Shown here piece by piece: positions 18,397-36,666 of a stretch of 64,000 nt of DNA. The stretch covers positions 62,001 through 126,000 of the forward strand of contig JAKOTR010000031.1 in assembly GCA_029776225.1 (NCBI GenBank). Reading direction: 5' to 3'. The notes beneath the pieces are model-generated. The model searched no databases and was not told the DNA's origin. It saw only the letters and a program-made list of their open reading frames with translations. Positions within the stretch are counted from its first letter, which is position 1; the number at the start of each line of letters is the position of its first letter. This DNA is from Acidobacteriota bacterium. GTDB lineage: Bacteria; Acidobacteriota; Terriglobia; Bryobacterales; Bryobacteraceae. Made by a program: the position numbers and the translations under genes.

Positions 18397-19872
18397 TCAA
18401 AATCCGAACCGGGCCGGGTTGCGGCCGATCAGCATGGCCGCCATCACCTTCGGCACGTACTCGCGGGTCTCCGCAGGCAGGGCGCGCGTGCGGTACAGAT
18501 ACCAGAAATTCCGCTGCTTGATAGGATCGCGCACGTTCCGCTCGATGGCCCCTTTCACCCGGGCGGGTCCGAGGTTGTACGCCGCCAGCGCGAGCATCAC
18601 CGAACTGCCGGTGCCGAACTCGAGAATAAGCCGGCGGATGTACTTGCAGGCCGCGTTCGTCGCTTTCACCGTATCAAGCCGTTCGTCCTGGTTCTCGTCC
18701 ACGATCAGGCCGAGCGACCGGGCGGTCGCCGGGGTGAATTGCCACAGGCCCGCCGCGCCCGCTCCGCTTTCCTGCGAATGATCGAAGGCACTTTCGACCA
18801 CCGCCATGTACGCGAGGTCCGGAGGCAGGTTGTTCTTTTCGAAGATGCTGCGCATTTTTTCCAGCTCGGGCCTCGCGCGCTTGAGCGCGCGTTCCATGTT
18901 GGGGCGGTCCGGTCCCTGGAACTGTTTGGTGTAGCGATTGACGCTTTCGACGAATTCGGGCGGCAGGCTGTAGATTTCGGCGCCGAACTCGGCCATCAGC
19001 AGCCGGAGTTCCTGCCGGACGAAATCCTCTTGCGAGCGGACGCCGAGGCGGTAGAGAAAGTTGGCCTGCAGCGCCAGCGCCTCATTCTGGTACTGATTCA
19101 GGAGCGCAATGAGTTTATCGGCGGCTTCGGGGTTCTGTCCCGGCTGCGCGAGCCTGGTTTCGAGGTCGTATATGCGGACGTCGATCTCGGCCTTGGCTCT
19201 TTTCAGCTCGCGGATGCGCCACACACTATAGGCGGTGCTAGCCGCCATTGCGACGACGAGAAGCCATATGGCAAAGGCCCACCTCCTCCGCGTCCGCCGG
19301 ACCACGTGCTGCAGGACCTCGCGCATGATGACGCCGGTCTGGTCGGCAATACCCGAGCTCCGGGCCAGCCGCGCGCGCGTCACCGCGTGCTGAAGGATCT
19401 GTTCGGTCTGGTCGCCCGCGCCGCCTTCGCGCGCACCGGGCGTGGCGATCAGAGTGCGGTCGAGATCCACTTGCGGGGGCGCGCTCATCACAAAAAGCAG
19501 CTGCGGGCCGCCCGCGCCGAGTTGAATCACGCAGGGAGCTTCAAGCCTGGTTTCGGTGACACGCTGGCCGTCTACAAACGTGCCGTTGGTGCTGTTGAGG
19601 TCCCGGAGAATGAAGGAATTGCCCTCGCGGCGAATCTCCAGGTGGTGGCCGGACACGATGGCGCAATCCGGACCCGTAACGACAACGTCGTTTTCAGGGT
19701 TGCGGCCGACCAGCGTGATGTCGTCTTCCAGCAGATAGCGAGTGCCGGACAGCGGCCCTGACCCAAGCACGAGGGCGGGCTTGTCGCGGCTCGCTTCTTT
19801 CTTCGGAGCTCGCAGTCGATCGACCTCCGCCGGCTCGGATTTGCAGTTCCGGACCGGCACTTCCATTGTCAC
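18397..19872 (-). CDS. FHA domain - membrane helix - lytic transglycosylase fusion
   Basis: A 491-residue membrane protein with an unusual domain order. Residues 34-128 form a forkhead-associated domain, with GR at 56-57, SGHH at 74-77 and NSTNGTFVDG at 93-102, which binds phosphothreonine. One membrane helix spans about 199-218, with arginines on its N-terminal side, so the FHA domain is cytoplasmic. A coiled-coil linker follows, then an SLT-type lytic transglycosylase domain (residues 340-470) with catalytic glutamate in AVVESAFDHS, then GLWQFTPATAR and ALAAYNLGPARV, which would be periplasmic. The GTG start at 19872 has AAGGG 9 bases upstream. Inference: phosphorylation inside the cell tunes or positions peptidoglycan cleavage outside. 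Confidence 0.85.
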   Translation of the reverse strand: MTMEVPVRNCKSEPAEVDRLRAPKKEASRDKPALVLGSGPLSGTRYLLEDDITLVGRNPENDVVVTGPDCAIVSGHHLEIRREGNSFILRDLNSTNGTFVDGQRVTETRLEAPCVIQLGAGGPQLLFVMSAPPQVDLDRTLIATPGAREGGAGDQTEQILQHAVTRARLARSSGIADQTGVIMREVLQHVVRRTRRRWAFAIWLLVVAMAASTAYSVWRIRELKRAKAEIDVRIYDLETRLAQPGQNPEAADKLIALLNQYQNEALALQANFLYRLGVRSQEDFVRQELRLLMAEFGAEIYSLPPEFVESVNRYTKQFQGPDRPNMERALKRARPELEKMRSIFEKNNLPPDLAYMAVVESAFDHSQESGAGAAGLWQFTPATARSLGLIVDENQDERLDTVKATNAACKYIRRLILEFGTGSSVMLALAAYNLGPARVKGAIERNVRDPIKQRNFWYLYRTRALPAETREYVPKVMAAMLIGRNPARFGF

Positions 19873-23950: not shown

Positions 23951-24811
23951 CTACCCCCGTGCGCCCAGCGCCGCCTTGGCGATAATCCAAAGCTTTTCTC
24001 GCGCCGGCAACTCCACCCGCTGGGACAGCACGTCGTAGTTGGTCTGTTCGATTCTGGCCAGCAGCCGGGAGTAGATCTCGATTAGCGCCCACAACGACGA
24101 CCGGCAGTGCTCATCCACCATGTCGATCAGCGGCCTCGATTCGTCGTAGTAGGCGCGGGCCCGCGCCGCCTCGAACTCCATCAGGGCCACGAACTCGTCG
24201 GTCCGCTTGCCTTCGCGCAGGTCCGCTACGTCGACGTGGAACCGCTCGAGGTCTTCGGCGGGCAAATATACGCGGCCGCGTGCGGCGTCCTCGCGCACAT
24301 CGCGCAGAATGTTGGTGAGCTGGAAGGCAACGCCGCACTTCTCGGCGAGCGGCAGTGCGTCCGGCGACTTGAAGCCGAAGATGTGGATCACGGTCAGCCC
24401 CACTACGGACGCCACCTGGTAGCAGTACCGGTACAGCTCGTCGAACGTCTGGATGCGCCGCGGCTGCAGATCCGACATCACGCCCTCGATCATGTCCCGG
24501 AAGTATTCGCGCGGGATGCGGAACCGCTGCACGGTATCGTGAAACGCCGGCCATCCGATGTGCCCGCTGAACCGCCCTTCGAGCGCGCAGTCCAGCTCCT
24601 CGCGCCACCGTTCGAGAGCCGCTTTCCGGGGGCAGCCGTCCCGCGGCGCATCGTCGCTCAGATCGTCGCACCGCCGCATGAAGGCGTAAATCGCGCAGAT
24701 CGCCTGGCGCTGCGGCTTGGGGAGCAACACGAAGGAGTAATAAAAATTTCGCGCCCGGCTCCGCGCCACCTGCCGGCAGTACTCGTATGATCGCTGGAGT
24801 GTTTCGTTCAT
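23951..24811 (-). CDS. hpnD: Squalene synthase-like HpnD (presqualene diphosphate synthase)
   Basis: A 286-residue prenyltransferase of the squalene/phytoene synthase family. Two aspartate-rich magnesium sites are seen: RRCDDLSDDAP near residue 47 and LRDVREDAARGRVYLP near residue 165. In the HpnCDE route HpnD condenses two farnesyl diphosphates to presqualene diphosphate, which HpnC and HpnE convert to squalene. Its ATG overlaps the hpnC stop by 4 bases. No hpnE follows; the next gene is tilS. Confidence 0.87.
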   Translation of the reverse strand: MNETLQRSYEYCRQVARSRARNFYYSFVLLPKPQRQAICAIYAFMRRCDDLSDDAPRDGCPRKAALERWREELDCALEGRFSGHIGWPAFHDTVQRFRIPREYFRDMIEGVMSDLQPRRIQTFDELYRYCYQVASVVGLTVIHIFGFKSPDALPLAEKCGVAFQLTNILRDVREDAARGRVYLPAEDLERFHVDVADLREGKRTDEFVALMEFEAARARAYYDESRPLIDMVDEHCRSSLWALIEIYSRLLARIEQTNYDVLSQRVELPAREKLWIIAKAALGARG

Positions 24812-25722
24812 GCCGCTCTCGCGAATGCCGCACGCCCGAGAGCGCCTAGTAACAGCCCGATCCGCTCGGCTTTAGAAATATACGGCCGCCGCGCAAGCAC
24901 ATTGTAGTTCTGACGCTCGATTTTCTCGAGGACGCGCATCCCGCCGCGGCTGAACAGCTCGATATCGATCGCCAGGCGGCGGTCCACCCTGCGGGCCAGC
25001 GGCAGTCCCTTCAAAAAGAGTTGCCGCGCGATGCCCACCGCCTCGCGCATCACGGCGCGGAAGGCGTCGTTTTCCAGCCGCGCTTCGAGCTGTTCCACCG
25101 AGTAGCCGTGGCGCTCCATGGCCTCCAGCGGAATATACACGCGTCCTTTCTCGAGGTCGCGCCCCACGTCCTGCCAGAAGTTCGCAAGCTGGAGCGCGGT
25201 GCAGGTCGCGTCGGAAAGCTCCTGCCGCTCCGCGTCGCGGTATCCGCAAAGATGGAGCACCAGCCGTCCCACGGGATTGGCCGACCAGCGGCAGTAGGCG
25301 AACAATTCTTCGTAGGTGCGGTAGCGCACCACTGTCTGGTCCTGCACGAACGCGCGGATCAGGTCGGCAAAGGGCTCTTTCGGCAAGCCGTGACGCTCCA
25401 CCGTTCCCTTCAGCGCCACGAACACCGGATGCGCCGCGCGGCCTTCGTACATGGCATCGAGCTCGCCGCGCCACCATTCCAGCAGGCGGAGGCTTTCGGC
25501 CGTGTCGCCGATTTCGTCGCCCAAATCGTCCGCCCAGCGGCAGAACGCGTAGACGTTGTAGAAATCCTGGTGCAGCCGCCGCGGCAGCAGCACGCTCACC
25601 ACATGAAAATTCTCGTAGTGGTGGGTCGCCAGCCAGCGCGTGTATTCGAGAGCTTCCCGCTCGGTGTACCGGCGCGCCAGGGCTTCCGGGGATTTCACGA
25701 AATCCTGGGGCTGTAAATACAC
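24808..25722 (-). CDS. hpnC: Squalene synthase-like HpnC (hydroxysqualene synthase)
   Basis: A 304-residue paralogue of HpnD. Aspartate-rich motifs are FCRWADDLGDEIGD near residue 60 and NFWQDVGRDLEKGRVYIP near residue 185. In the HpnCDE pathway it converts presqualene diphosphate to hydroxysqualene. The gene starts 4 bases after the second MDR dehydrogenase and overlaps hpnD by 4 bases, so it is translationally coupled on both sides. Assignment of HpnC versus HpnD rests on the family-typical gene order and on this copy having the usual longer N-terminus. Confidence 0.85.
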   Translation of the reverse strand: MYLQPQDFVKSPEALARRYTEREALEYTRWLATHHYENFHVVSVLLPRRLHQDFYNVYAFCRWADDLGDEIGDTAESLRLLEWWRGELDAMYEGRAAHPVFVALKGTVERHGLPKEPFADLIRAFVQDQTVVRYRTYEELFAYCRWSANPVGRLVLHLCGYRDAERQELSDATCTALQLANFWQDVGRDLEKGRVYIPLEAMERHGYSVEQLEARLENDAFRAVMREAVGIARQLFLKGLPLARRVDRRLAIDIELFSRGGMRVLEKIERQNYNVLARRPYISKAERIGLLLGALGRAAFARAA

Positions 25723-25726
25723 TGGC

Positions 25727-26767
25727 TCAGGGAATGATCGCAGTCTTCAAGTGGCCGTTGTGGCTCATCAGGTGCCGCATGACTTCGAGCAGATTCGACA
25801 GCGGCTCCTCGCGATTGACGAAATCCCGCGCCGCAATCACGCCGCGGCGGATCAGATCGAGCGCTCTCCGGATGTGCGCCGGCGTGTGATGGAAGCTCGC
25901 CTTGCAGGTGATCTCCGAGTAATGCAGCAGCGAGGTGTCGAGCGAAACGCGGCTATCGCTCGGGCAGCCTCCGAAGAAGTTTACCGTGCCGCCCCGGCGC
26001 ACCATGTGGACGCACATTTCCCACGTCTGCGGTTTCCCGACCGCCTCGATGGCGACGTCCGTTCCGCGGCCTTCGGTCAGGCTCCGCACCACGCTCACGG
26101 GATCCTGGTACTGGGTTGTCGAAATCAGCTCGTCGGCGCCCAGGGCCGCGGCCCTCTCCAACTGCGTCTTGCGCCGGCCGAGCGCAATCACCCGCGCGCC
26201 CAGCGATTTCGCCAGCCGCACGAACATCAGCCCGATCGGCCCCAGGCCGATGACCGATACGTTGTAGCCTTCGCGGATGCCCGTGTCCTCGATTCCTTTC
26301 AGCACGCACGCCAGCGGTTCCACCAGCGCCGCATCCTGGTAACTCACGTTCTCGGGAATCTCGTACGTGTTCTTTTCTACAATGCGCGCCGGAATCCGTA
26401 TGTACTCGGCATACGCTCCGTTGTTAAACAGCAGGTCGTCGCACAGGTTCTCGCAGCCTCGCCGGCAGTAGAAGCACTCCTGGCACGGCGCGGAATTCGC
26501 CGCCACGATTCTCTGGCCCACGCGGAACTTCGTAACGCCCTCTCCGACCGCGACGACGTCCCCGGCCAGTTCGTGGCCGAATACCGCGGGAGGGATGATC
26601 ATGCGGGCGTGATAGCCGCGACGGAAGACCTTCACGTCGGTGCCGCAGGTCAGGGCGGCTCTTACACGCACCAGTAGATCTCCCGCGCGAGGTTCCGGGA
26701 CCGCTACCGGCTCAATCTGTAGGTTTTCTTTACCGTATAGGACGGCAGCCAGCATTTGGGTATTCAC
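25727..26767 (-). CDS. Zinc-dependent medium-chain dehydrogenase 2 in hopanoid operon
   Basis: A 346-residue MDR-family (alcohol dehydrogenase-like) oxidoreductase. Catalytic zinc residues appear as LTCGTDVK and GHELAGDVV; the structural zinc loop is CQECFYCRRGCENLC; the NAD(P) fold is VIGLGPIGLMFVRLA. The GTG at 26767 is preferred because it overlaps the previous gene's TGA as GTGA; two other in-frame starts lie nearby. It sits between a paralogue and hpnC with no gap over 4 bases. The substrate is unknown; sugar alcohol or sorbitol dehydrogenases are the nearest-looking type. Its position suggests a step in hopanoid side-chain processing. Confidence 0.8.
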   Translation of the reverse strand: MNTQMLAAVLYGKENLQIEPVAVPEPRAGDLLVRVRAALTCGTDVKVFRRGYHARMIIPPAVFGHELAGDVVAVGEGVTKFRVGQRIVAANSAPCQECFYCRRGCENLCDDLLFNNGAYAEYIRIPARIVEKNTYEIPENVSYQDAALVEPLACVLKGIEDTGIREGYNVSVIGLGPIGLMFVRLAKSLGARVIALGRRKTQLERAAALGADELISTTQYQDPVSVVRSLTEGRGTDVAIEAVGKPQTWEMCVHMVRRGGTVNFFGGCPSDSRVSLDTSLLHYSEITCKASFHHTPAHIRRALDLIRRGVIAARDFVNREEPLSNLLEVMRHLMSHNGHLKTAIIP

Positions 26768-27822
26768 TGTGCCCACCTCTGTGGTCGAACAACAATCTTC
26801 AACGAACTCTCATCCGGATGTAACGCCAGCTTTATCGCGGAACTTATCGAGTCGAGTGGTAACCGGTGCGAAATGAGGTCTTCCACCGGCAATTCGCCGC
26901 TGAACACCAGCCGGGCGGACTCCTTTTGGAGATCCACCGAAGCGCTGTAACAGCCTAGCAGAGTCCTTTCTCCGACACAAATGTCCGCTCCTGATAATTC
27001 TACCGTTTCTTGATGCGAAGTTTGAGCAAATAAAAGGATTCTCCCTCCGGGCCGCGAACACCGGACCCCCTGTTGCACCAAACCGGGGGCCGAAGCGGCC
27101 AAAATTACGAGGTCCGCGCCGCGCCCTTCCGTAAGCCTGGCGACCAGGGGCTCGATCTCCGTTGTCCTCGGGTCCCAGGCCTCTTCGGCGCCGAACCGTA
27201 CCGCCAGCTCGCGCCGCCGCGCGATCGTGTCCGTGGCCAGCACCCGCGCGCCGGTGCGGCGTACCAGCATCGTGAACAGCAGCCCGATCGGCCCCTGTCC
27301 CAGGATGAGGCAGGTCTCGTCCGGCTTTGGGTCCAATTGCACGACGGCCTTCAGGCACGTGTTGACCGGCTCCACGAAGCAGGCGCGGTCAAAAGGCACG
27401 TCGTCGGAGAATTTCTCCACCCCGCGGCACACGATCCAGTCCATCACGCGGACGTACTGAGCGAAACCGCCTCCGGCAGGTTCGAACCCCGCCGTAACTC
27501 CCACTTTCTTGTAAACCGGGCATTGGGCGTACAGCTTGCGGCGGCAATAGAAGCACTCCCCGCAGGGGATATGGTGAAATACGATCACCCTGTCCCCCAC
27601 CGAATAACCCGTAACACCCGGCCCCACGCGCACGACGACCCCCGCGGTTTCGTGCCCGTATATGCGCGGCGGCGGGAGGAGGTCATACTCCACTTTCTTC
27701 AGATCGGTGTGGCAGATGCCACAGCTCTCCACGCGTACCAGTAATTCCCCGGGTCCGATTTTCGGCGTCGGAACCGTCTCCACGGCAATCGTGCTGTTGC
27801 CGCGGTAAACGGCCGCCCGCAT
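26764..27822 (-). CDS. Zinc-dependent medium-chain dehydrogenase 1 in hopanoid operon
   Basis: A 352-residue MDR-family oxidoreductase, paralogue of the next gene. Catalytic zinc residues are in SCGICHTDLKK and YGHETAGVV, the structural zinc loop is CGECFYCRRKLYAQC, and the Rossmann motif is LILGQGPIGLLFTMLV. The ATG at 27822 gives the family-typical start MRAAVYRG; a longer frame would need a TTG start at 27873 and would overlap hpnG. Two different MDR proteins in tandem could form a heteromer or act on successive steps. The substrate is unknown. Confidence 0.8.
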   Translation of the reverse strand: MRAAVYRGNSTIAVETVPTPKIGPGELLVRVESCGICHTDLKKVEYDLLPPPRIYGHETAGVVVRVGPGVTGYSVGDRVIVFHHIPCGECFYCRRKLYAQCPVYKKVGVTAGFEPAGGGFAQYVRVMDWIVCRGVEKFSDDVPFDRACFVEPVNTCLKAVVQLDPKPDETCLILGQGPIGLLFTMLVRRTGARVLATDTIARRRELAVRFGAEEAWDPRTTEIEPLVARLTEGRGADLVILAASAPGLVQQGVRCSRPGGRILLFAQTSHQETVELSGADICVGERTLLGCYSASVDLQKESARLVFSGELPVEDLISHRLPLDSISSAIKLALHPDESSLKIVVRPQRWAQ

Positions 27823-27841: not shown

Positions 27842-28537
27842 TCAGAATCGGCAGTCGGCAAAAAACTCTCCAAGCGCCCGTGCGGCGATACGTCCCTGCC
27901 GCTCCAGGCGAATCAACTCCGGCAGCGATGCCCACGGACGGGCCAGCGCCGCCCTCAGGATCCGAAGACGGCTGAAACGCCCGTCCCGATCCCGCAAACC
28001 ATCAAAATCCAAAGTAAAGCCTTCACACGCCCGGTCCATAACGGCCCGAACGCAATAAAACGGCACGCCGAACTCTTCGGCCTGCCGGGCCACCGCCGCG
28101 GCTTCCATTTCCACCGCGGAGGCGCCGCTCGCGGCGAGACGGCGTTTTTCCTCTACCGTCCCCACCACGCGCTCGGCGGAAACCAGCACGCCCGAGCGGA
28201 ACTTCCGGCCCGCCGGCGGCTGTGCCGCCTCGTACGAACGGCCTTTGGCGAGAATCCGCGAGGCCACGAACACGTCGCCGGTGTTCAAATCGTCCTCCAG
28301 CGCGCCGCAAGAGCCGGTGCTCACAACGGCCTGAACCTTTTCGCGGCTGAGCGCCACGGCGGCGGCCTCCGCCGCCAGAGGCCCCGGCCCGTGCGCCGCC
28401 ATCAGCATCCGCTGGCCGTTCAATTCGCCGCTCCGCGCGAATTGTATGGGCCAGTCCAGGCGTCTTACGTTCCGGCATTTCCGCAGCACGCCCTTCAACT
28501 CGCGCGGTTCGGCCGCAACAACCAGCACCGTCTTCAC
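27842..28537 (-). CDS. hpnG: Hopanoid-associated phosphorylase HpnG
   Basis: A 231-residue member of the nucleoside phosphorylase/nucleosidase family. It has VVSTGSCGALEDDLNTGDV near residue 75 and VEMEAAAVARQAEEFGV near residue 150, the purine-binding acid motif. In hopanoid biosynthesis HpnG releases adenine from adenosylhopane to give ribosyl- or phosphoribosyl-hopane. The GTG at 28537 overlaps the hpnA stop as GTGA and gives the start MKTVLVVAAEPREL. A longer frame exists but would overlap hpnA by about 50 bases. Confidence 0.85.
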   Translation of the reverse strand: MKTVLVVAAEPRELKGVLRKCRNVRRLDWPIQFARSGELNGQRMLMAAHGPGPLAAEAAAVALSREKVQAVVSTGSCGALEDDLNTGDVFVASRILAKGRSYEAAQPPAGRKFRSGVLVSAERVVGTVEEKRRLAASGASAVEMEAAAVARQAEEFGVPFYCVRAVMDRACEGFTLDFDGLRDRDGRFSRLRILRAALARPWASLPELIRLERQGRIAARALGEFFADCRF

Positions 28538-29514
28538 TGCACGCAGTATCCGTTGCCGCGGAACCATTCGACGGCGCGGCACAGCGCGTCTTCGACGGGG
28601 CCGGGCGAATATCCCAACTCGCGTGCAGCCTTTTCGTGCGAGGCGAACATTTTCTTGCTCGCCATCCGGACGCCGTTCAGCGGCGCCCGGGGCGCCCTTC
28701 CCGTGACCGCAGCCCAGCCCGTGCTCACCAGGGCCGCGGCATAGGCCACCGCGTAAGGAATCCGCCGCCGCGGTGCCGTTCGGCCGCTGATTTTTTCCAG
28801 CATCCCGAAAATTTCCGCGAGCGTCAGGTTGGCGGCTCCGAGAATGTAGCGCTCACCCGGCTTTCCGCGGTCCGCCGCCAGTAGATGACCCTCGGCCACA
28901 TCGCGCACATCGACCAGGTTCAAACCGGTCTCGATATAAGCCGGCATGGCCCCGTTCAAGAAATCCACGATGATCTTGCCGGTCGGCGTGGGCTTGAAAT
29001 CGTGATCCCCGATGGGCGCGGTCGGGTTCACGATGATCACCGGAAATCCCTCGGCGGCGAACTGGAGCGCAACCTGCTCGGCCATAAATTTCGAGCGCTT
29101 GTAATCGCCCACCATGTCCGCAAGAGAAACCGGCGTGTCCTCGTCGCCCGGCTTGTCCTTCGGGAAGCCGATGCATCCGACCGTGCTCGTATAAACCACC
29201 TTTTCCACGCCTGCCGCGCGCGCCGCTTCGAGCAAGTTGCGCGTGCCGTCCACATTGGACCGGTACATCTCGCTCGGGTCCTTGGCCCACAGCCGGTAAT
29301 CGGCGGCCACGTGGAACACCAGGCCGCAGCCGTCAACCGCACTTTTCAGCGAATCCGGGTCGCGCAGGTCGCCCGTAACCGTCTCGACATCGAGTTCCCT
29401 CACGCGGCTGGACGGACGCACCAGCGCCCGCACACAACATCCTCGCTCCAGCAGCACGCGCGCCACGTGCCATCCGACAAAGCCCGTGGCTCCTGTCACC
29501 AGTACAGGTTTCAT
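28534..29514 (-). CDS. hpnA: Hopanoid-associated sugar epimerase HpnA
   Basis: A 326-residue extended short-chain dehydrogenase/epimerase-type protein. The NAD-binding motif is VTGATGFVGWHVARVL at the N-terminus, and the catalytic YxxxK is seen in DYKRSKFMAE, with a serine/threonine region in VVYTSTVGCIG. HpnA proteins accompany hopanoid loci, but their reaction is not settled. The start follows the hpnH stop by one base. Confidence 0.88.
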   Translation of the reverse strand: MKPVLVTGATGFVGWHVARVLLERGCCVRALVRPSSRVRELDVETVTGDLRDPDSLKSAVDGCGLVFHVAADYRLWAKDPSEMYRSNVDGTRNLLEAARAAGVEKVVYTSTVGCIGFPKDKPGDEDTPVSLADMVGDYKRSKFMAEQVALQFAAEGFPVIIVNPTAPIGDHDFKPTPTGKIIVDFLNGAMPAYIETGLNLVDVRDVAEGHLLAADRGKPGERYILGAANLTLAEIFGMLEKISGRTAPRRRIPYAVAYAAALVSTGWAAVTGRAPRAPLNGVRMASKKMFASHEKAARELGYSPGPVEDALCRAVEWFRGNGYCVQ

Positions 29515-29515
29515 C

Positions 29516-30625
29516 TCACCGGATCGCCCACTTCAACAGCTTCCAGTTGTCTCCGGGCCGCGCGTTGATCCCAAGAGCGGCCGAAGGCTCATATCCGCAG
29601 TGCGTCATGCAGTGCTCGCAGCGCGGATCGTTCCCATGGCCATAGCTCTCCCAATCCGTTTTGGTCATGAATTCTTCGAAGGTTCGATAGTGGGCGTCGG
29701 TGATCAGATAACACGGCCCCTTCCACCCCTTGACGTTGTAGGTCGGGTTGCCCCATGCCGTGCATGGCAGATCGCGTTCGCCCTTCAAAAATTCCAGATA
29801 CGCCGGCGTGGTGTTCAGCTTAAAGCGCCGCGCCAGCCTGTCAATGTCTTTGAATTTTTCGTGCACGTCCTCCCGCGTCAAAAAGATTTCGCGGTCGTTG
29901 ACGGCCGAGTAGCCGTATGCGGGAGACAGCATGTGCCCGTCCATGTCGAACTGCTCCAGATACTCGAACAGTTGCTCGATCTCCCGCATGTCCGTTTCTT
30001 TGTAAATGGTGGTGTTCGTGCAGACCTTAAAACCGGCCGCTTTCGCCACCCGGATCGCTTCGATCGCCTGGCGGAACACGCCCTTGCGCTCGACCGCCGC
30101 GTCGTGGTGTTCCTCCATGCCGTCCAGGTGGATGTTGAAGAAGAACTTCGGGTGCGGCTTGAACTCGTCGAGTCGCTTCTTCACGAACATGCCGTTGGTG
30201 CACAGGTAAATGTGCTTGCCCCGGCGGAGGATCTCCGCCGTCAGGCGCCCGATTTCCGGATACAGCAGCGGCTCGCCCCCGCAGATCGATACGATGGGCG
30301 CGCCGCACTCGTCCACCGCCGCCAGGCATTGCTCCACGGAAAGCCTTTGGGTGATCGAATCCTCGTATTCGCGGATCCGGCCGCATCCCGTGCAGGTCAG
30401 GTTGCAGGCGTGCAGCGGCTCCAGCATCAGCACCAGCGGGAAACGCTTATCGATCATGGGATGGCGCTGCGTGCCGTTGCTGCTTCGGTGCTGGTGCAGG
30501 ATCCGGAATGGATTCGAAGAGCCGTTTTGCGGCGCGGCGTTCTTCTGCCACTCCGGCCGGGGCCGCAGCTTGTTTTTCATGATGTAGCCGGCCATGCCGG
30601 CGGTCATCGATAGCGGAAATCGCAT
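29516..30625 (-). CDS. hpnH: Adenosyl-hopene transferase HpnH (radical SAM)
   Basis: A 369-residue radical SAM enzyme that adds a 5'-deoxyadenosyl group to diploptene, the first step of C35 hopanoid side-chain synthesis. The cluster motif is CNLTCTGC, followed by SICGGEPLLYPEIG. The start at 30625 has a strong GGGAGG two bases upstream. The N-terminus has about 35 extra, low-similarity residues (roughly 20-58) between MAGYIMKNKL and the core RFPLVLMLEPLHAC, longer than I expect for the family. It lies 73 bases after shc, one of the few real gaps in this operon. Confidence 0.9.
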   Translation of the reverse strand: MRFPLSMTAGMAGYIMKNKLRPRPEWQKNAAPQNGSSNPFRILHQHRSSNGTQRHPMIDKRFPLVLMLEPLHACNLTCTGCGRIREYEDSITQRLSVEQCLAAVDECGAPIVSICGGEPLLYPEIGRLTAEILRRGKHIYLCTNGMFVKKRLDEFKPHPKFFFNIHLDGMEEHHDAAVERKGVFRQAIEAIRVAKAAGFKVCTNTTIYKETDMREIEQLFEYLEQFDMDGHMLSPAYGYSAVNDREIFLTREDVHEKFKDIDRLARRFKLNTTPAYLEFLKGERDLPCTAWGNPTYNVKGWKGPCYLITDAHYRTFEEFMTKTDWESYGHGNDPRCEHCMTHCGYEPSAALGINARPGDNWKLLKWAIR

Positions 30626-30698: not shown

Positions 30699-32618
30699 TC
30701 ATCGCGCGGTCTCCAGAAACTCCGAGAGCGCCAGAAGCGGAAACGCTTGCGGGTAAAGGTGATAGCGGAGGTAGAAGACGCCGGGAAAGCCAGCGCCTGT
30801 CTCCGCGTCTTCCTGCCAGCTTCCGTCCTCGCGCTGCGTATTCACCAGATACTCGATGCCCGCTCGGACGCTCAGGCTTGCGTTGTCTCCTCCCGCGATC
30901 AGCCCCAGCACGGCCCACGCCGTCTGCGATGCCGTGCTCGGAGCCGGGCAGAACGTTCCCTGATCATAACTGGCGCAGCTCTCCCCCCAGCCGCCGTCGG
31001 CATTCTGGATGGCTCGCAGCCACTCGCCCGCGCGCAATATGGCGGCTTCGCGGTCGCTCACTCCCGCCGCCCTCAGCCCGCGCAGCGCCAGGAAGGTCCC
31101 GTAAATGTAATTCACGCCCCAGCGGCCGTACCAGCTTCCATCCTGCTCCTGCGTCTTCATGAGGTAGGCCACGGCGCGCTGCACCGCGGGATGGTCGGGC
31201 CCGATGCCCGGCATCGAGCAGAGCGATTCGAGCACCCGCCCGGTGATGTCGGGGCAGGTGGGATCGAGCATCGCGTTATGATCCGCAAACGGCATGTAGC
31301 TGAGCGGCTGCCAGTTGTTGTCCACGTCGAAAGCCGCCCATCCGCCGTCCTTCGATTGCATCGCCAGCAGCCAGTCGAGCGCCCGTCTTTCGCAGGCCTG
31401 TTGGGCCGTTGCGTTGGAAGCCCGCGCGTGCCGCAGCGCCAGCAGCACCATGCCTGTGTCGTCGATATCCGGATAGAACTCGTTCGCGAATTCGAAATAC
31501 CAGCCCGAAGGCTCGGTGTGCGGCCGCCACACGGACCAGTCGCCCTTTCTGCGCACTTCTTTGGACAGCAGCCAGTCCGCGCACCGGCGTAATGCCTCGC
31601 TGGGGGCGTGCCCCGATTTCCCTAGTGCGAACGCCGCGATCGCCGTGTCCCACACCACCGAGAAGCACGGCTGGAAGAAGAAGCGCTCGCCGTCATCGGT
31701 CAGCAGCCGTTCGAACTGCGCTTCCGCCTCCACGCGGTCGGGGTGATCCGGGGGATAGCCGAGCAGGTCGAGCACCATCACGGTGTACATCATCGGTGGG
31801 TAAATCGCCGCCAGCCCATCGCTGTAGCGCGTCCGCTCGAGCATCCACTGTTCGCACTTCCGAATGGCTTTCCTGCGCAGCGCCCGCACCGGATGCCGCT
31901 CATAGAACTTCAAAAGCCTGTCCACCGCGAAGAAGAAGTTGCGCCAACTGAAAAGCCTTTCCTTCTCGCGGTATTCGAAGCTGCCCTCAGGCAGGAATAG
32001 TTCCTGAAGCGAAAAGCCTGCAGGCACGGGACGCACCGAGTCCGACGACTGGAGGATCGAAAGCGGCACAACGATCGCGCGCGTCCACGACGACATGCGA
32101 TAGAGGAACCTGCCCGGCAGCAGGATCATCTCCGGCGGCACGCTCGGACAGTGTTCTCTCGGATACAGCCCGAACAGGCTCAGGTTGATCTTGACGTAGC
32201 TGTTCGCCTGCTGAATGCCCCCGAGCGCCAGTATGCGCTCCCGCGCGCGCGCCATGCGCGGGTCATCCGGCGGCACTCCCGCCACTTTCAGCGCGAAATA
32301 TGCCTTGACGGTCGCGCTCACATCCGCCGGACCGCCGGTGTAGATGCTGAAGCCGCCGTCAGGCAACTGGCGGGACAGAATCGACCGCACCGCGCGGTCG
32401 ATCCGCTGCCGGGTGGGAGGATTCCACACGCTCCCTTCCGGCGGGTGAAGCCACAACTGCAACAGGATGTAGTCGGATTCCAGGGTGGTGTCGGCGGTCA
32501 CGTCGAACCACCAGTAGCCTTCGGGCGACTGGCGGCTCAGCAGGAATTCGGCCGAGCGGCGGCAAGCCCGCGCGGCGCCGCTGGCCAGCGCTTCATCGAC
32601 TTGGATGCCTGGAATCAT
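30699..32618 (-). CDS. shc: Squalene-hopene cyclase
   Basis: A 639-residue triterpene cyclase that folds squalene into hopene or hopanol at the membrane. The catalytic acid motif appears as DIDDT at residues 384-388, matching DXDDTA except for glycine in the last position. Several QW repeats are visible, including SPEGYWWFD, QSKDGGWAAFD, QEQDGSWYGRWG, QNADGGWGES and QREDGSWQED. The ATG overlaps the ispH stop as ATGA. Length and repeat pattern are normal for bacterial enzymes. Confidence 0.93.
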   Translation of the reverse strand: MIPGIQVDEALASGAARACRRSAEFLLSRQSPEGYWWFDVTADTTLESDYILLQLWLHPPEGSVWNPPTRQRIDRAVRSILSRQLPDGGFSIYTGGPADVSATVKAYFALKVAGVPPDDPRMARARERILALGGIQQANSYVKINLSLFGLYPREHCPSVPPEMILLPGRFLYRMSSWTRAIVVPLSILQSSDSVRPVPAGFSLQELFLPEGSFEYREKERLFSWRNFFFAVDRLLKFYERHPVRALRRKAIRKCEQWMLERTRYSDGLAAIYPPMMYTVMVLDLLGYPPDHPDRVEAEAQFERLLTDDGERFFFQPCFSVVWDTAIAAFALGKSGHAPSEALRRCADWLLSKEVRRKGDWSVWRPHTEPSGWYFEFANEFYPDIDDTGMVLLALRHARASNATAQQACERRALDWLLAMQSKDGGWAAFDVDNNWQPLSYMPFADHNAMLDPTCPDITGRVLESLCSMPGIGPDHPAVQRAVAYLMKTQEQDGSWYGRWGVNYIYGTFLALRGLRAAGVSDREAAILRAGEWLRAIQNADGGWGESCASYDQGTFCPAPSTASQTAWAVLGLIAGGDNASLSVRAGIEYLVNTQREDGSWQEDAETGAGFPGVFYLRYHLYPQAFPLLALSEFLETAR

Positions 32619-33583
32619 TGCGTGCTGATCGTGGTCAGCCGCCGCGCAGCTTCTGTCAATTCAGCGGGCAGCGTAAAGCGGACGTCCTCCTGCTTGAGGT
32701 CCCTCTCCTCGAACTGAGAGAAGCCGTGCTGCTTCAGCGCGGCAATGAGTTCGCGGACCAGGTGCTCAGGCGCCGACGCGCCTGCGGTCACCGCCACCGT
32801 TCTCACGCCGTCCAGCCACGAAGGATTCACCTCCCCGGCGTCGTCCACCAGGTACGCCGGGACACCGGAGTTCTTCGATACTTCGACCAGCCGCTTTGAA
32901 TTCGAGCTGTTCTTCGAGCCGACAACCAGAAGCAACTCGCATTCGCTCGCCACGGCTTTCACTGCAAGCTGCCGGTTTTCGGTTGCATAGCAGATGTCCT
33001 GTGCCGGGGGACCCTGGATCGCCGGGAAGCGCTGCTTCAGCCGCGCCACGATGTCGCGCGTTTCGTCCAGGCTGAGCGTCGTCTGGGTCAGGTATGCGAT
33101 CCTTTCCGGGTTCGGCGGCTCCAGCCGGTCCACGTCCTCGACCGAGGAAACCACAACCGTGCAGTCGGGGGCTTCGCCCAGCGTCCCGATCACTTCGTCG
33201 TGGTCGCGATGGCCGATCAGAACGATCGTGTACCCAGCCTTGGCAAAGCGGACCGCCTCCAGGTGCACCTTGGTCACCAGCGGGCAGGTGGCATCGATCA
33301 CGCGCAGTTTGCGCTCGACCGCTTGCCTTCTCACCGCCGGCGACACCCCGTGCGCGCTGAAGATCACGCGCGCGCCCTCGGGAACCTCGTCCAGCTCCTC
33401 GACGAAGATCGCCCCCGCGCGCCGGAGCTCCTCCACGACATGGCGGTTGTGGACGATCTCCTTGCGCACATAAATCGGCGAACCGTACAGGTCCAGAGCA
33501 ATCTCGACGACGTCGATCGCCCGCACCACACCGGCGCAGAAACCGCGCGGCTTGAGCAATATCACCTTTCTTTCGTTTTGCAT
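32615..33583 (-). CDS. ispH: 4-hydroxy-3-methylbut-2-enyl diphosphate reductase
   Basis: A 322-residue iron-sulfur enzyme, the last step of the MEP pathway, making IPP and DMAPP. The three cluster cysteines are in RGFCAGVVRAI (Cys 16), DATCPLVTKVH and DICYATENRQ, with the catalytic glutamate in the TEN motif and the substrate residues NSSNSKRLVEV. As first gene of the hopanoid operon it supplies the isoprenoid precursor for the downstream squalene-hopene enzymes. A strong extended -10 lies about 35 bases upstream. Confidence 0.96.
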   Translation of the reverse strand: MQNERKVILLKPRGFCAGVVRAIDVVEIALDLYGSPIYVRKEIVHNRHVVEELRRAGAIFVEELDEVPEGARVIFSAHGVSPAVRRQAVERKLRVIDATCPLVTKVHLEAVRFAKAGYTIVLIGHRDHDEVIGTLGEAPDCTVVVSSVEDVDRLEPPNPERIAYLTQTTLSLDETRDIVARLKQRFPAIQGPPAQDICYATENRQLAVKAVASECELLLVVGSKNSSNSKRLVEVSKNSGVPAYLVDDAGEVNPSWLDGVRTVAVTAGASAPEHLVRELIAALKQHGFSQFEERDLKQEDVRFTLPAELTEAARRLTTISTQ

Positions 33584-33698: not shown

Positions 33699-36029
33699 TC
33701 ACAGGCCCGGAAAGATCGCTGCCGTCACCGCCCCCAAGAACTCCTCTTCGTTCTCCACCTCGACCCGGATCTCCAGCCAGGCCAGCCGCAGCTCTCCGAT
33801 CGCCTCCTTCCAGTCCCCCGGCAGGTTCATGTAATCCTTCGCCGTGGTGAGCAGAACCTCGGCGCCCGCCGCCCGGGCTTCCTCGACCAGACGGCTGAGC
33901 TCGCGCCCCGAGTAGCGATGGTGGTCAGGGAACACGCGCTTCAGCACCGGCTGGATTCCCAAGCCCCTCAACGTCTGCCAGAATGAATCCGGGTTCCCCA
34001 AACCGCAGAAGGCCGCCGCGGGTCCCGAAGGCGGCTCGGGACGCCACGTCTCCGCCGCCACTCGCGCCCGGAAAATCGGCACGTCCGGGTTGTAGCGCCG
34101 GATCACGGCTTCGATCCCGTCCGTTTTGCGGCCCTCTTCCCACCGGGTGATGACGACGATGCCGGCCCGCCGCAGCGCGCCCAATCCCTCGCGCAGCGAT
34201 CCGAGCGGCACGGCGGCGCCCCCGCCGAACGGGTTCAGCGCATCGATCAGCACGATGTCGAGCGCCCGTTCCAGCCGGTAGTGCTGGAACCCGTCGTCCA
34301 GGAGGAAAACCGCGGGGTGAAACCGCTCCTCGATCAACCGTCCGGCGCCCGCGCGGTCCGCTGCTATGCCCACGGGCCCGATTGCCGCTCTCAAATAGCT
34401 CTGCGCTTCATCGCCGGTTCGCGAGACATCGGCGTACTCCCCGGGCCCCACGATCGTGTACTTTTCGGCCGTTCGCCGCCGGTATCCGCGCGTCAGGATG
34501 GCCGGCTGCAAGCCGCGGGCCTTGAGCTTGCCGGCCAGCCAGAGCACGAACGGCGACTTGCCGGTCCCGCCGGTGGTCAGGTTGCCCACGCTGACGACCG
34601 GCGTGCGCAGCCGCTCGCGCCGGCCGAGAGTACGCTTGAGCCAGCCTCCCGCCAGCCACAGTTGCGATAGCGGCCAGAGCGCGGCGGCAACCGGCGCGGG
34701 CGGCCGGAACGCCGGCACGGCGCGCCAGTACAGGCGGGCGATCTCTTGGGCAGCCCGAGCCGTCGCCCCGCGTTCGGCTTCGGCCAGCTCTCCCGCCCTT
34801 TGCCCGATTCTGGCTCGCAATTCATTGTCTTCCAACAGTTTAGCCACGGTGCCGGCAAGCTGCTCCGCGCCCGCGATGGCGTAGAGCCCGCCGCCCGCCT
34901 GGAATTTCTCCGCGATCTCCGGGAAATTTTCCATGTGCGGGCCGGTGATCACCGCGCGTTGGAAAAAGGCCGGCTCCAGGATGTTATGGCCGCCCCTTTG
35001 CGCCAGCGTTCCACCCATGAACACCACGTCCGCCAGCCCAAACAGCGAGCTCAGCTCACCGATCGAATCCAGCAGCAGAACACCCGGGAGTGGCAGGTCC
35101 TCCTGCGACGGCAAAGCCGACCGCCTGAGGAACGGAATACCCCGCCTTTGCAGCATGGCCGCCGCCGTATCGAAGCGCTCCGGCTTGCGGGGAACCAGCA
35201 CCAACAGCAGATCCGGATGCCCCGGCGCAAGGGCTTGAAAAGCGTCCGCGACCGCTTCGTCTTCGTCCGGGTCTCCCTCGCGCGCCGGGGGCATGGTGCT
35301 GGCGGCAATCCAGATACGGCCGGGCGCCACGCGGTCCAGCAGGCTGCGGATCGCAGGCGGAACCCGCACGTCACGCGGTTCGAAATCGTACTTCAGATTC
35401 CCGGCGGTCTTCACCCGGCCGGCCGGAGCGCCCAGCTCCCGAAAGCGCTGCGCGCTGATTTCCGTCTGGGCCAGAATGGCATCCGGCCAGGCAAGCACCT
35501 GCCGGAACAGCCACCGGAACCTGCGGTAGCGCGGCATGGCGCGGTCCGAGATCCGGCCGTTGACGATTACCAGCCCGCACCCGGCCCGCTTGGCCTCGCG
35601 GTAGAGGTTCGGCCAGATTTCGGTTTCCATTACGACCAGCATTCGGGGACGCAGGCGCCGCAAGACACGCCGTACGATGTGGCAGTAATCAATCGGCGCG
35701 TAGAAGATGCCGTCGGCGACCCCGCGCAGCTTATCTTCCGCCGCGGCCCTTCCGGCGAGGGTTGTAACCGATACGAACAGCGGCGCGCCCGGAATTTCGG
35801 CCCGCAGGCGCTTGAGCAGTCCCACCGCCGAAAGCACTTCCCCGACCGAAACCGCATGCAACCAGATGCCGCCCGCTTCCGTCTGCCGCAATGAGCCCGG
35901 CAGCAGGCCGAGTCTCTCACCGAACCGCTGGAAATACCTGCGGTTTTTCAGCCCGCGCACGAGGAAGTACATTACGATAAGGGGAAGGCACAGGATCTGG
36001 ATGAGGCGATAAATGAAAATGGCGTTCAC
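33699..36029 (-). CDS. WaaA-LpxK fusion: Kdo transferase and lipid A 4'-kinase in one protein
   Basis: A two-enzyme protein of lipid A/LPS core synthesis at the inner membrane. Residues 1-430 match WaaA/KdtA: an N-terminal membrane helix (FIYRLIQILCLPLIVMYFL), WLHAVSVGEVLSA, METEIWPNL, and GGTLAQRGGHNILEPAFF. Residues 445-776 match LpxK: SVGNLTTGGTGKSPFVLWLA (P-loop at about 487-492), LTRGYRR, FLLDDGFQH and ITRWEEGRK, ending with a TTAKDYMNL block. The GTG at 36029 was chosen because WaaA proteins begin just before this membrane helix; a longer frame from 36104 would run deep into the divergent gene. Both halves look complete. Confidence 0.85.
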   Translation of the reverse strand: MNAIFIYRLIQILCLPLIVMYFLVRGLKNRRYFQRFGERLGLLPGSLRQTEAGGIWLHAVSVGEVLSAVGLLKRLRAEIPGAPLFVSVTTLAGRAAAEDKLRGVADGIFYAPIDYCHIVRRVLRRLRPRMLVVMETEIWPNLYREAKRAGCGLVIVNGRISDRAMPRYRRFRWLFRQVLAWPDAILAQTEISAQRFRELGAPAGRVKTAGNLKYDFEPRDVRVPPAIRSLLDRVAPGRIWIAASTMPPAREGDPDEDEAVADAFQALAPGHPDLLLVLVPRKPERFDTAAAMLQRRGIPFLRRSALPSQEDLPLPGVLLLDSIGELSSLFGLADVVFMGGTLAQRGGHNILEPAFFQRAVITGPHMENFPEIAEKFQAGGGLYAIAGAEQLAGTVAKLLEDNELRARIGQRAGELAEAERGATARAAQEIARLYWRAVPAFRPPAPVAAALWPLSQLWLAGGWLKRTLGRRERLRTPVVSVGNLTTGGTGKSPFVLWLAGKLKARGLQPAILTRGYRRRTAEKYTIVGPGEYADVSRTGDEAQSYLRAAIGPVGIAADRAGAGRLIEERFHPAVFLLDDGFQHYRLERALDIVLIDALNPFGGGAAVPLGSLREGLGALRRAGIVVITRWEEGRKTDGIEAVIRRYNPDVPIFRARVAAETWRPEPPSGPAAAFCGLGNPDSFWQTLRGLGIQPVLKRVFPDHHRYSGRELSRLVEEARAAGAEVLLTTAKDYMNLPGDWKEAIGELRLAWLEIRVEVENEEEFLGAVTAAIFPGL

Positions 36030-36666
36030 TGGCAAGTTGTTTTTCGCAGCATTCCTGAGTATAGCGGCAGCGAGCGGGGCGGAGAAGGATAGACCCAGGT
36101 TCACCCCCGGCCCGATCGAAAGCTACCCCTGCCGCCAGACCATCCAAGATCTGACCGTAGCCGCCCAACCCTTCCTCACCGACGCCGAAACCAAGACCGC
36201 CTTTGGGAAGCTGAACCCGAACCGCCACGGAGTTCTGCCCATCCTGGTTATCATTCAGAACAACACGGATAAAGCGCTGTCGCTGGAGAATCTCCGGGTG
36301 GAGTTCCAGACGCCGGACCGCGAACGGATCGAGGCCACCCCCGCCGCCGATGTCCCTTATCTGCAAGGACCGAACCAGCCCAGACTCTACGGAGGACCGA
36401 TCCCCGGCCGCCCGCCGCACATATCCAAGAAGAAAGGTCCGCTGGCCGTCTGGGAAATCGAAGGCCGCGCCTTCACCGCCCGCATGCTCCCGCCGAAAGA
36501 GACCGCGAGCGGGTTTTTCTATTTCCGCGCACCCTTCCGGGGCGGTTCGACGCTCTTCGTGCGGGGCATACGGGAAGCCGCTACCGGCAACGAATGGTTT
36601 TACTTTGAAATCCCGCTGGATAAAAAAGAGGTAAGCGCAGCGCCGGTGCGGAGCGGACAGCCGTAG
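36013..36666 (+). CDS. Hypothetical secreted protein
   Basis: A 217-residue protein with a typical signal peptide, KLFFAAFLSIAAASGAE. The mature part is mostly beta-strand-like: a domain with ILVIIQNNTDKALSLENLRVEFQTP resembles an Ig-like or transthyretin-like sandwich, followed by a glycine/proline-rich segment. No family was recognised. GAGG lies 7 bases before the ATG. Its first 17 bases overlap the chosen start of the divergent waaA-lpxK gene, so the two promoters must overlap or one start is further in. Confidence 0.65.
   Translation: MKMAFTGKLFFAAFLSIAAASGAEKDRPRFTPGPIESYPCRQTIQDLTVAAQPFLTDAETKTAFGKLNPNRHGVLPILVIIQNNTDKALSLENLRVEFQTPDRERIEATPAADVPYLQGPNQPRLYGGPIPGRPPHISKKKGPLAVWEIEGRAFTARMLPPKETASGFFYFRAPFRGGSTLFVRGIREAATGNEWFYFEIPLDKKEVSAAPVRSGQP

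Follow-up and report, generated by a model that had tools for sequence, protein, structure and literature searches.

Two zinc dehydrogenases encoded in an acidobacterial hopanoid operon are candidate enzymes of the C35 side chain

Which enzyme turns ribosylhopane into bacteriohopanetetrol (BHT), and could it be one of two dehydrogenases encoded inside a hopanoid operon of an Acidobacteriota bacterium? According to steps established or proposed in the literature, HpnH would form adenosylhopane and HpnG would remove the adenine to give ribosylhopane, an aldose. For the reduction that follows, the passage on this step in the 2017 study of acidobacterial hopanoid clusters assigns no enzyme and suspects HpnA (PMC5462960), and in November 2025 the enzyme was still called unestablished (PMC12583986), just as the preliminary description of this locus had put it. 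The section of the 2025 paper on alphaproteobacterial hpn clusters reports no obvious new candidate near them (PMC12583986). In the passages of the open-access literature examined here we found no dehydrogenase assigned to this conversion.

The window, by which we mean the whole analysed stretch of 64,000 nucleotides, carries on its minus strand the gene order ispH-shc-hpnH-hpnA-hpnG-MDR2-MDR1-hpnC-hpnD. IspH (32615-33583; NF002189, 472.3 bits), the squalene-hopene cyclase SHC (30699-32618; TIGR01507, 639.5 bits), the adenosyl-hopene transferase HpnH (29516-30625; TIGR03470, 435.7 bits), the hopanoid-associated sugar epimerase HpnA of the SDR type (28534-29514; TIGR03466, 484.9 bits) and HpnC (24808-25722; TIGR03464, 354.8 bits) all score above the cut-offs of their models, and HpnD (23951-24811; TIGR03465, 278.1 bits) lies just below its cut-off of 278.6. 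The adenosylhopane nucleosidase/phosphorylase HpnG (27842-28537) is divergent, as its top match TIGR03468 reaches 141.8 bits and is clearly under the cut-off of 187.1, and its position in the operon fits the assignment. With hpnH, hpnG and shc in one operon the locus has the content of a C35 hopanoid cluster, HpnG being under its own cut-off. Beyond hpnD in operon direction follow tilS and ftsH, named from their translations alone. Two further minus-strand frames of the window are an 801 aa frame just upstream of ispH (33699-36104), with a match to Kdo transferase at its start and to LpxK (tetraacyldisaccharide 4'-kinase) at its end and thus likely a fusion of two lipid A genes, and a 491 aa frame (18397-19872) in which a lytic transglycosylase (SLT) domain comes after an FHA domain.

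The two dehydrogenase genes, MDR1 (25727-26776 as listed, 349 aa) and MDR2 (26764-27822, 352 aa), are tightly packed between hpnG and hpnC. By their coordinates hpnH and hpnA are 1 nt apart, and in the window sequence hpnA and hpnG share GTGA in a 4-nt overlap, 19 nt with a GGAG ahead of the MDR2 ATG separate hpnG from MDR2, 4 nt lie between MDR1 and hpnC, and hpnC and hpnD overlap by the 4 nt ATGA. A start of MDR1 at the GTG at 26776 gives a 13 nt overlap with MDR2 and one at the GTG at 26767 shares GTGA with the MDR2 end; the true start is likely the latter, alternatively the ATG at 26755. Between 23800 and 34000 four terminator-like sites were detected, all on the plus strand and none on the minus strand. 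The sequence and Pfam matches to ADH_N and ADH_zinc_N above the cut-offs in both proteins confirm two complete tandem zinc MDR genes with overlaps or gaps of a few bases, as described before, and the arrangement suggests that the pair is co-translated with the hpn genes.

Part of this arrangement has already been published, and what we add is its association with the C35 branch. Sinninghe Damste 2017 describes acidobacterial clusters A, B and C with the genes ug1, ug2 and ug3 (PMC5462960), and in its cluster descriptions ug1 comes after hpnG while ug2, often annotated as Zn-alcohol dehydrogenase of ca. 350 aa, stands before hpnC (PMC5462960). The modules given there, hpnA-hpnG-ug1, ug2-hpnC-hpnD-hpnE and an isp gene-shc-hpnH, are also those of the window (PMC5462960). 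By position, MDR2 would be ug1 and MDR1 would be ug2. Bryobacterales we take to be SD3. The cluster descriptions report ug2 in SD1 and SD3 genomes and missing from cluster A in SD3 (PMC5462960), whereas MDR1 is found beside hpnC in the Bryobacterales loci studied here. The passages on ug2 give no reaction and group it loosely with the squalene genes (PMC5462960), in contrast to the link to the C35 branch described below.

In order to describe how far the gene order is conserved, we scanned named genomes with the MDR2 alignment and examined the best 80 of at least 557 relatives, nearly all of them Bryobacterales or other Acidobacteria by title. MDR matches below 250 bits and HpnC/HpnD matches below 100 bits were dropped, and only loci with the flank given in each case were counted. 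Among these best 80 of at least 557, the first labelled gene upstream of MDR2 is hpnG in 74 of 75 loci (flank >800 nt), and the first one downstream is MDR1 in 67 of 67 (>1100 nt). No more than 2.5 kb separate MDR2 from hpnC in 63 of 64 loci (>2200 nt), and no more than 3 kb separate it from hpnA in 68 of 70 (>2000 nt). As the hpnG-MDR2 and MDR2-MDR1 neighbourhoods are kept this regularly, the arrangement is not a matter of chance. In 33 of 69 loci compared MDR1 could start so as to overlap the MDR2 stop by 4 nt, in 13 an overlap of 1-2 nt is possible, and 23 allow neither. Protein identity across the best 80 of at least 557 loci is 56-84%, the closest among the matches listed (84%) being a Bryobacterales MAG, and retention of the order at such distances argues against the idea that both proteins are ordinary sugar or polyol dehydrogenases riding in the operon with no role in hopanoid formation. 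Two records with unexpected titles also turned up: the MAG record L139, which bears the title Bordetella parapertussis, has a typical Bryobacterales-like hopanoid operon and its title looks wrong, and a MAG titled Verrucomicrobia (G186, loci L179/L189) has MDR2-MDR1 on a 3.2 kb contig, plus HpnH. The pair in G186, the only genome with an MDR2 match among 194 genomes drawn around it, may stem from transfer or bin contamination. Judged by its title and by the lack of further matches around it, G186 would belong to another phylum.

Structure prediction gave confident models of both proteins (mean pLDDT 94.8 for MDR2 and 89.2 for MDR1), and Foldseek matches them to polyol, threonine and alcohol dehydrogenases, an ordinary MDR fold that would also suit passengers without a hopanoid role. 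In profile searches the ketose reductase 1e3j is the top PDB match for both, the best relatives being polyol/ketose dehydrogenases. MDR1 and MDR2 have fold, catalytic and structural zinc ligands and length in common with MDR polyol dehydrogenases (1e3j; sorbitol, xylitol and L-threonine 3-dehydrogenases), but among the Foldseek matches listed they are only 20-32% identical to known polyol dehydrogenases, and they differ from these in gene context and presumably in substrate. Secondary alcohols are the usual substrates of polyol dehydrogenases of this type, a point against MDR1 as the enzyme that reduces the ribosylhopane aldehyde. Both proteins stay below the cut-offs of all NCBIfam models that they match, including L-threonine 3-dehydrogenase TIGR00692 (169.7 bits for MDR1 and 160.9 for MDR2, cut-off 458.35) and IolM NF041097 (173.6 and 163.5 bits, cut-off 450). 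Judged from the alignments the zinc ligands are intact, as C44, H68, E69, E153 and C98, C101, C104, C112 are invariant in 21 aligned MDR1 sequences and C34, H57, E58, E151 and C87, C90, C93, C101 in 20 aligned MDR2 sequences; the assignment of C, H, E, E to the catalytic zinc and of the four cysteines to the structural zinc follows the usual pattern of the family.

The two proteins differ at the cofactor site. In MDR enzymes an acidic residue where the second strand of the cofactor-binding fold ends goes with NAD(H), and a non-acidic residue with K or R goes with NADP(H). MDR2 has D or E at this place in 56 of 56 rows. In 49 of 50 MDR1 rows the residue is non-acidic and K or R mostly comes next, the window protein being counted twice in both sets, and the loop reads GKR, which is NADP-type, in 5 of 5 MDR1 proteins of family f70. 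We thus predict MDR1 to be of the NADP(H) type and MDR2 of the NAD(H) type.

In a tree of 74 proteins a single branch (96/93) separates the MDR1-labelled from the MDR2-labelled rows, with a stray MDR2-labelled row of G066 on a long branch near the root. Neighbouring MDR1-like and MDR2-like genes away from hpn genes (G132, G051, G063 and G078) group with MDR1 and MDR2, respectively. As these non-hopanoid pairs split in the same way, the MDR couple seems to predate its place in the hopanoid operon, the root of the tree being uncertain. A side result concerns HpnH, of which two types exist in the family of the window, the in-operon type of the window and a longer one that is mostly encoded away from the operon. 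The HpnH of the window covers positions 22-316 of its model only and is 42-43% identical to three proteins of the longer type, and it keeps the CxxxCxxC cluster and the YLCTN cysteine; each of 47 family genomes has exactly one HpnH match, 23 being weaker and 24 stronger when read by E-value.

The link to the C35 branch appears in the distribution within the class, for which 220 genomes were drawn evenly from a larger group and searched at E <=1e-75 for the MDRs and E <=1e-50 for HpnH. There are 175 genomes with HpnH, 159 with MDR1 and 153 with MDR2; 151 have all three and 43 have none of them. As raw counts among related genomes, MDR1 is found in 157 of 175 HpnH-positive and 2 of 45 HpnH-negative genomes and MDR2 in 151 of 175 and 2 of 45; the two genomes with MDRs and no HpnH (G424 and G440) are MAGs of 85% and 81% completeness. 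MDR2 never occurs without MDR1, while six genomes have HpnH and MDR1 without MDR2, namely five of family f70 and G519, whose hpnA lies at a contig start and whose MDR2 may be absent through an assembly gap. These counts ignore phylogeny, and neighbouring genes can be lost jointly at contig ends, which confounds co-loss; since the genomes are related, a Fisher test of the MDRs against HpnH (p ~1e-25 and below) is not taken as evidence. Physical linkage is not the whole explanation, because 30 of 34 related loci without hpnH in the operon carry it elsewhere in the genome, with no HpnH match in the other four (G153, G157, G162 and G170). That the MDRs co-occur with HpnH even where hpnH has moved also speaks against mere passengers.

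Against MDR1 as the BHT enzyme, 18 of the 175 HpnH-positive genomes have neither MDR. We searched HpnG in 65 of the 220 genomes (E <=1e-15) and found it in all 20 genomes sampled among those with HpnH, MDR1 and MDR2, in all 6 with MDR1 only, in 1 of 19 lacking all three and in neither of the two with MDRs and no HpnH. Twelve of the 18 MDR-less genomes also gave a match, eight at >100 bits and four at 81-95 bits, the latter being the level of the match in a genome without HpnH. Given the eight strong matches, some genomes do have HpnH and HpnG without any MDR; one of them is G560, where the gene past hpnG is on the opposite strand. Judging by ten flanking proteins, no dehydrogenase consistently takes the place of the MDRs behind hpnG in relatives that lack them. 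An apparent loss of HpnG along with the MDRs (26/0 against 8/10, Fisher p 1.8e-5), with low or fragmentary matches in the MDR-bearing G386, G391 and G428 scored as present and weak ones in the MDR-less G393, G454, G476 and G532 as background, was set aside in view of contig-end co-loss and of controls comprising 20 of 151 genomes. G007 was likewise dropped as a clean co-loss of HpnG, MDR1 and MDR2: its contig, which ends 2.2 kb past HpnH, lacks HpnA, and HpnE was not found in this genome either, so that one missing stretch could explain the absences.

Across the phylum (149 genomes, again drawn evenly from a larger group) HpnH is present in 35 genomes, MDR2 above 360 bits in 20, of which 19 have HpnH (not G113), and MDR1 above 390 bits in 21, of which 19 have HpnH (not G113 and G132). 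Several of these genomes show shc-hpnH-hpnA-hpnG with no MDR adjoining. As other HpnH/HpnG Acidobacteriota lack close copies, the MDRs are not a universal solution to the ribosylhopane step, and other enzymes may serve it there. The co-occurrence of the pair with hpnG and hpnH, for which the preliminary description had proposed a survey, therefore holds within the class as a tie to the C35 branch and is limited in two respects, the pair being separable and close copies of both genes being absent from other HpnH/HpnG Acidobacteriota. Homologues usually standing apart from hopanoid genes, which would have told against the idea, were not found for most close orthologues. The exceptions are distant relatives as well as G066, where the pair lies beside a proline dehydrogenase and a different contig carries the hpn genes, and G132, where a close MDR1 lies beside a class II aldolase with no HpnH match. 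That some homologues, even close ones, have such unrelated neighbours favours passengers, but rearranged genomes keep each MDR with an hpn module, and taken together we consider this explanation improbable.

The rearranged genomes are instructive. In G049, G036 and G061 hpnA-hpnG is immediately followed by MDR2, and at a site far away MDR1 immediately precedes hpnC-hpnD; in G130 hpnG-MDR2 is about 11 kb from MDR1-hpnC. As the pieces correspond to the modules published as hpnA-hpnG-ug1 and ug2-hpnC-hpnD-hpnE, the window operon can be read as a join of modules. In family f70 five of seven sampled HpnH-positive genomes have MDR1 without MDR2. MDR1 alone fills the hpnG-hpnC slot in G388, G422, G416 and G403, and in G428 MDR1 is followed by hpnC on a contig that begins 0.4 kb before them; G396 and G410 contain HpnH but no MDR, the contig of G410 being cut inside hpnA. 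The splits and the lone MDR1 of f70 rule out a tight, inseparable pair. A different arrangement is found in all four genomes of family f28, where the locus reads ispH-hpnA-MDR2-MDR1-hpnD without hpnG and HpnH is encoded elsewhere in three of four genomes, with no match in G113, which has a close MDR1. The only HpnC/D-type gene there scores best as HpnD in all three cases tested among the four genomes, and no HpnE was found in any of the four, with MDR1 nonetheless kept. Their best HpnG-like proteins, encoded elsewhere in the genome, score better as futalosine hydrolase (three) or MTA nucleosidase (one), and proteins of these types might stand in for HpnG in f28 (L085-L088).

The same genomes bear on the proposal that MDR1 acts in squalene formation with hpnC, hpnD and hpnE, leaving only MDR2 for the side chain. 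MDR1 adjoins an hpnC/hpnD-type gene in hopanoid loci, which suits a squalene link and is against a side-chain reading. A squalene link is also favoured by the place of MDR1 beside hpnC-hpnD in the split operons, by the nearness of hpnC to MDR2 given above and by the grouping of ug2 with hpnC-hpnD-hpnE in the cluster descriptions of 2017 (PMC5462960). However, the HpnD-HpnC-HpnE route is complete without MDR1 (Pan 2015 as told in PMC5462960), and the presence of MDR1 follows that of HpnH in a comparison that sorted the genomes by HpnH and not by their squalene genes. HpnE is encoded at another site of the window genome, which excludes MDR1 as its substitute there. In f28 MDR1 is retained beside one HpnD-like gene although no HpnE was found, and the two cases together show that MDR1 has no fixed link to the HpnE step. 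A function in squalene formation is therefore hardly probable.

We tentatively favour, from comparative sequence evidence, that the hopanoid operon took in two MDR enzymes acting on the C35 side chain, with MDR1 as ribosylhopane reductase and MDR2 as accessory enzyme. MDR1, of the NADP(H) type, would most likely reduce the aldehyde of open-chain ribosylhopane to the primary alcohol of BHT. It is the candidate because it belongs to the right class of chemistry and to the NADP type, because its presence follows HpnH and because it is the one left where the pair is reduced; this emphasis reverses the positional hint, as MDR2 is the gene beside hpnG. The NADPH-dependent reduction of ribosylhopane to BHT reportedly seen in a cell-free system of Methylobacterium organophilum (Bodlenner 2015) is the reaction proposed for MDR1, the enzyme there having no gene assignment. 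MDR2, of the NAD(H) type, would be dispensable and dependent on MDR1, since it never occurs without it, and would probably be an accessory that works on this polyol chain too, either as another reductase or by oxidising a secondary hydroxyl.

The main weakness of MDR1 as ribosylhopane reductase lies in the HpnH/HpnG clusters of the phylum without MDRs and in f28, which has both MDRs without hpnG. These make it nearly as good an explanation that the pair tailors the finished side chain, although on balance we regard this as somewhat less likely than the reductase role: MDR2 would oxidise a hydroxyl with NAD+ and MDR1 would use NADPH to reduce the resulting ketone from the opposite face, which would yield a stereoisomer, for example 34R BHT, or else a keto or further modified polyol would be left, and BHT itself would come from an unlinked general reductase, as must hold in bacteria without the MDRs. 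The conserved opposition of cofactor types, the kinship of both proteins to polyol dehydrogenases, the HpnH/HpnG-positive relatives without MDRs and the occurrence of similar pairs outside hopanoid loci are all consistent with tailoring, and the part of the 2025 paper on BHT isomers records both 34R and 34S forms in bacteria (PMC12583986). But the five f70 genomes with MDR1 and no MDR2 show that a cycle of oxidation and reduction is not obligatory, and we found no BHT isomer data for these organisms in the literature examined. A combination, in which MDR1 is the ribosylhopane reductase of Terriglobia and also forms with MDR2 an NADPH/NAD+ couple inverting the C-34 hydroxyl (C-2' of the ribose), would be a long shot; if it were true, one pair would both finish BHT and set its stereochemistry.

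Hopanoids are major, sterol-like lipids of bacterial membranes, and molecular fossils derived from them are widespread. With a gene that accompanies HpnH in most of the class and can be expressed alone, the ribosylhopane step becomes directly testable, and if MDR1 has the role proposed here it would help to predict BHT production from genomes in this group.
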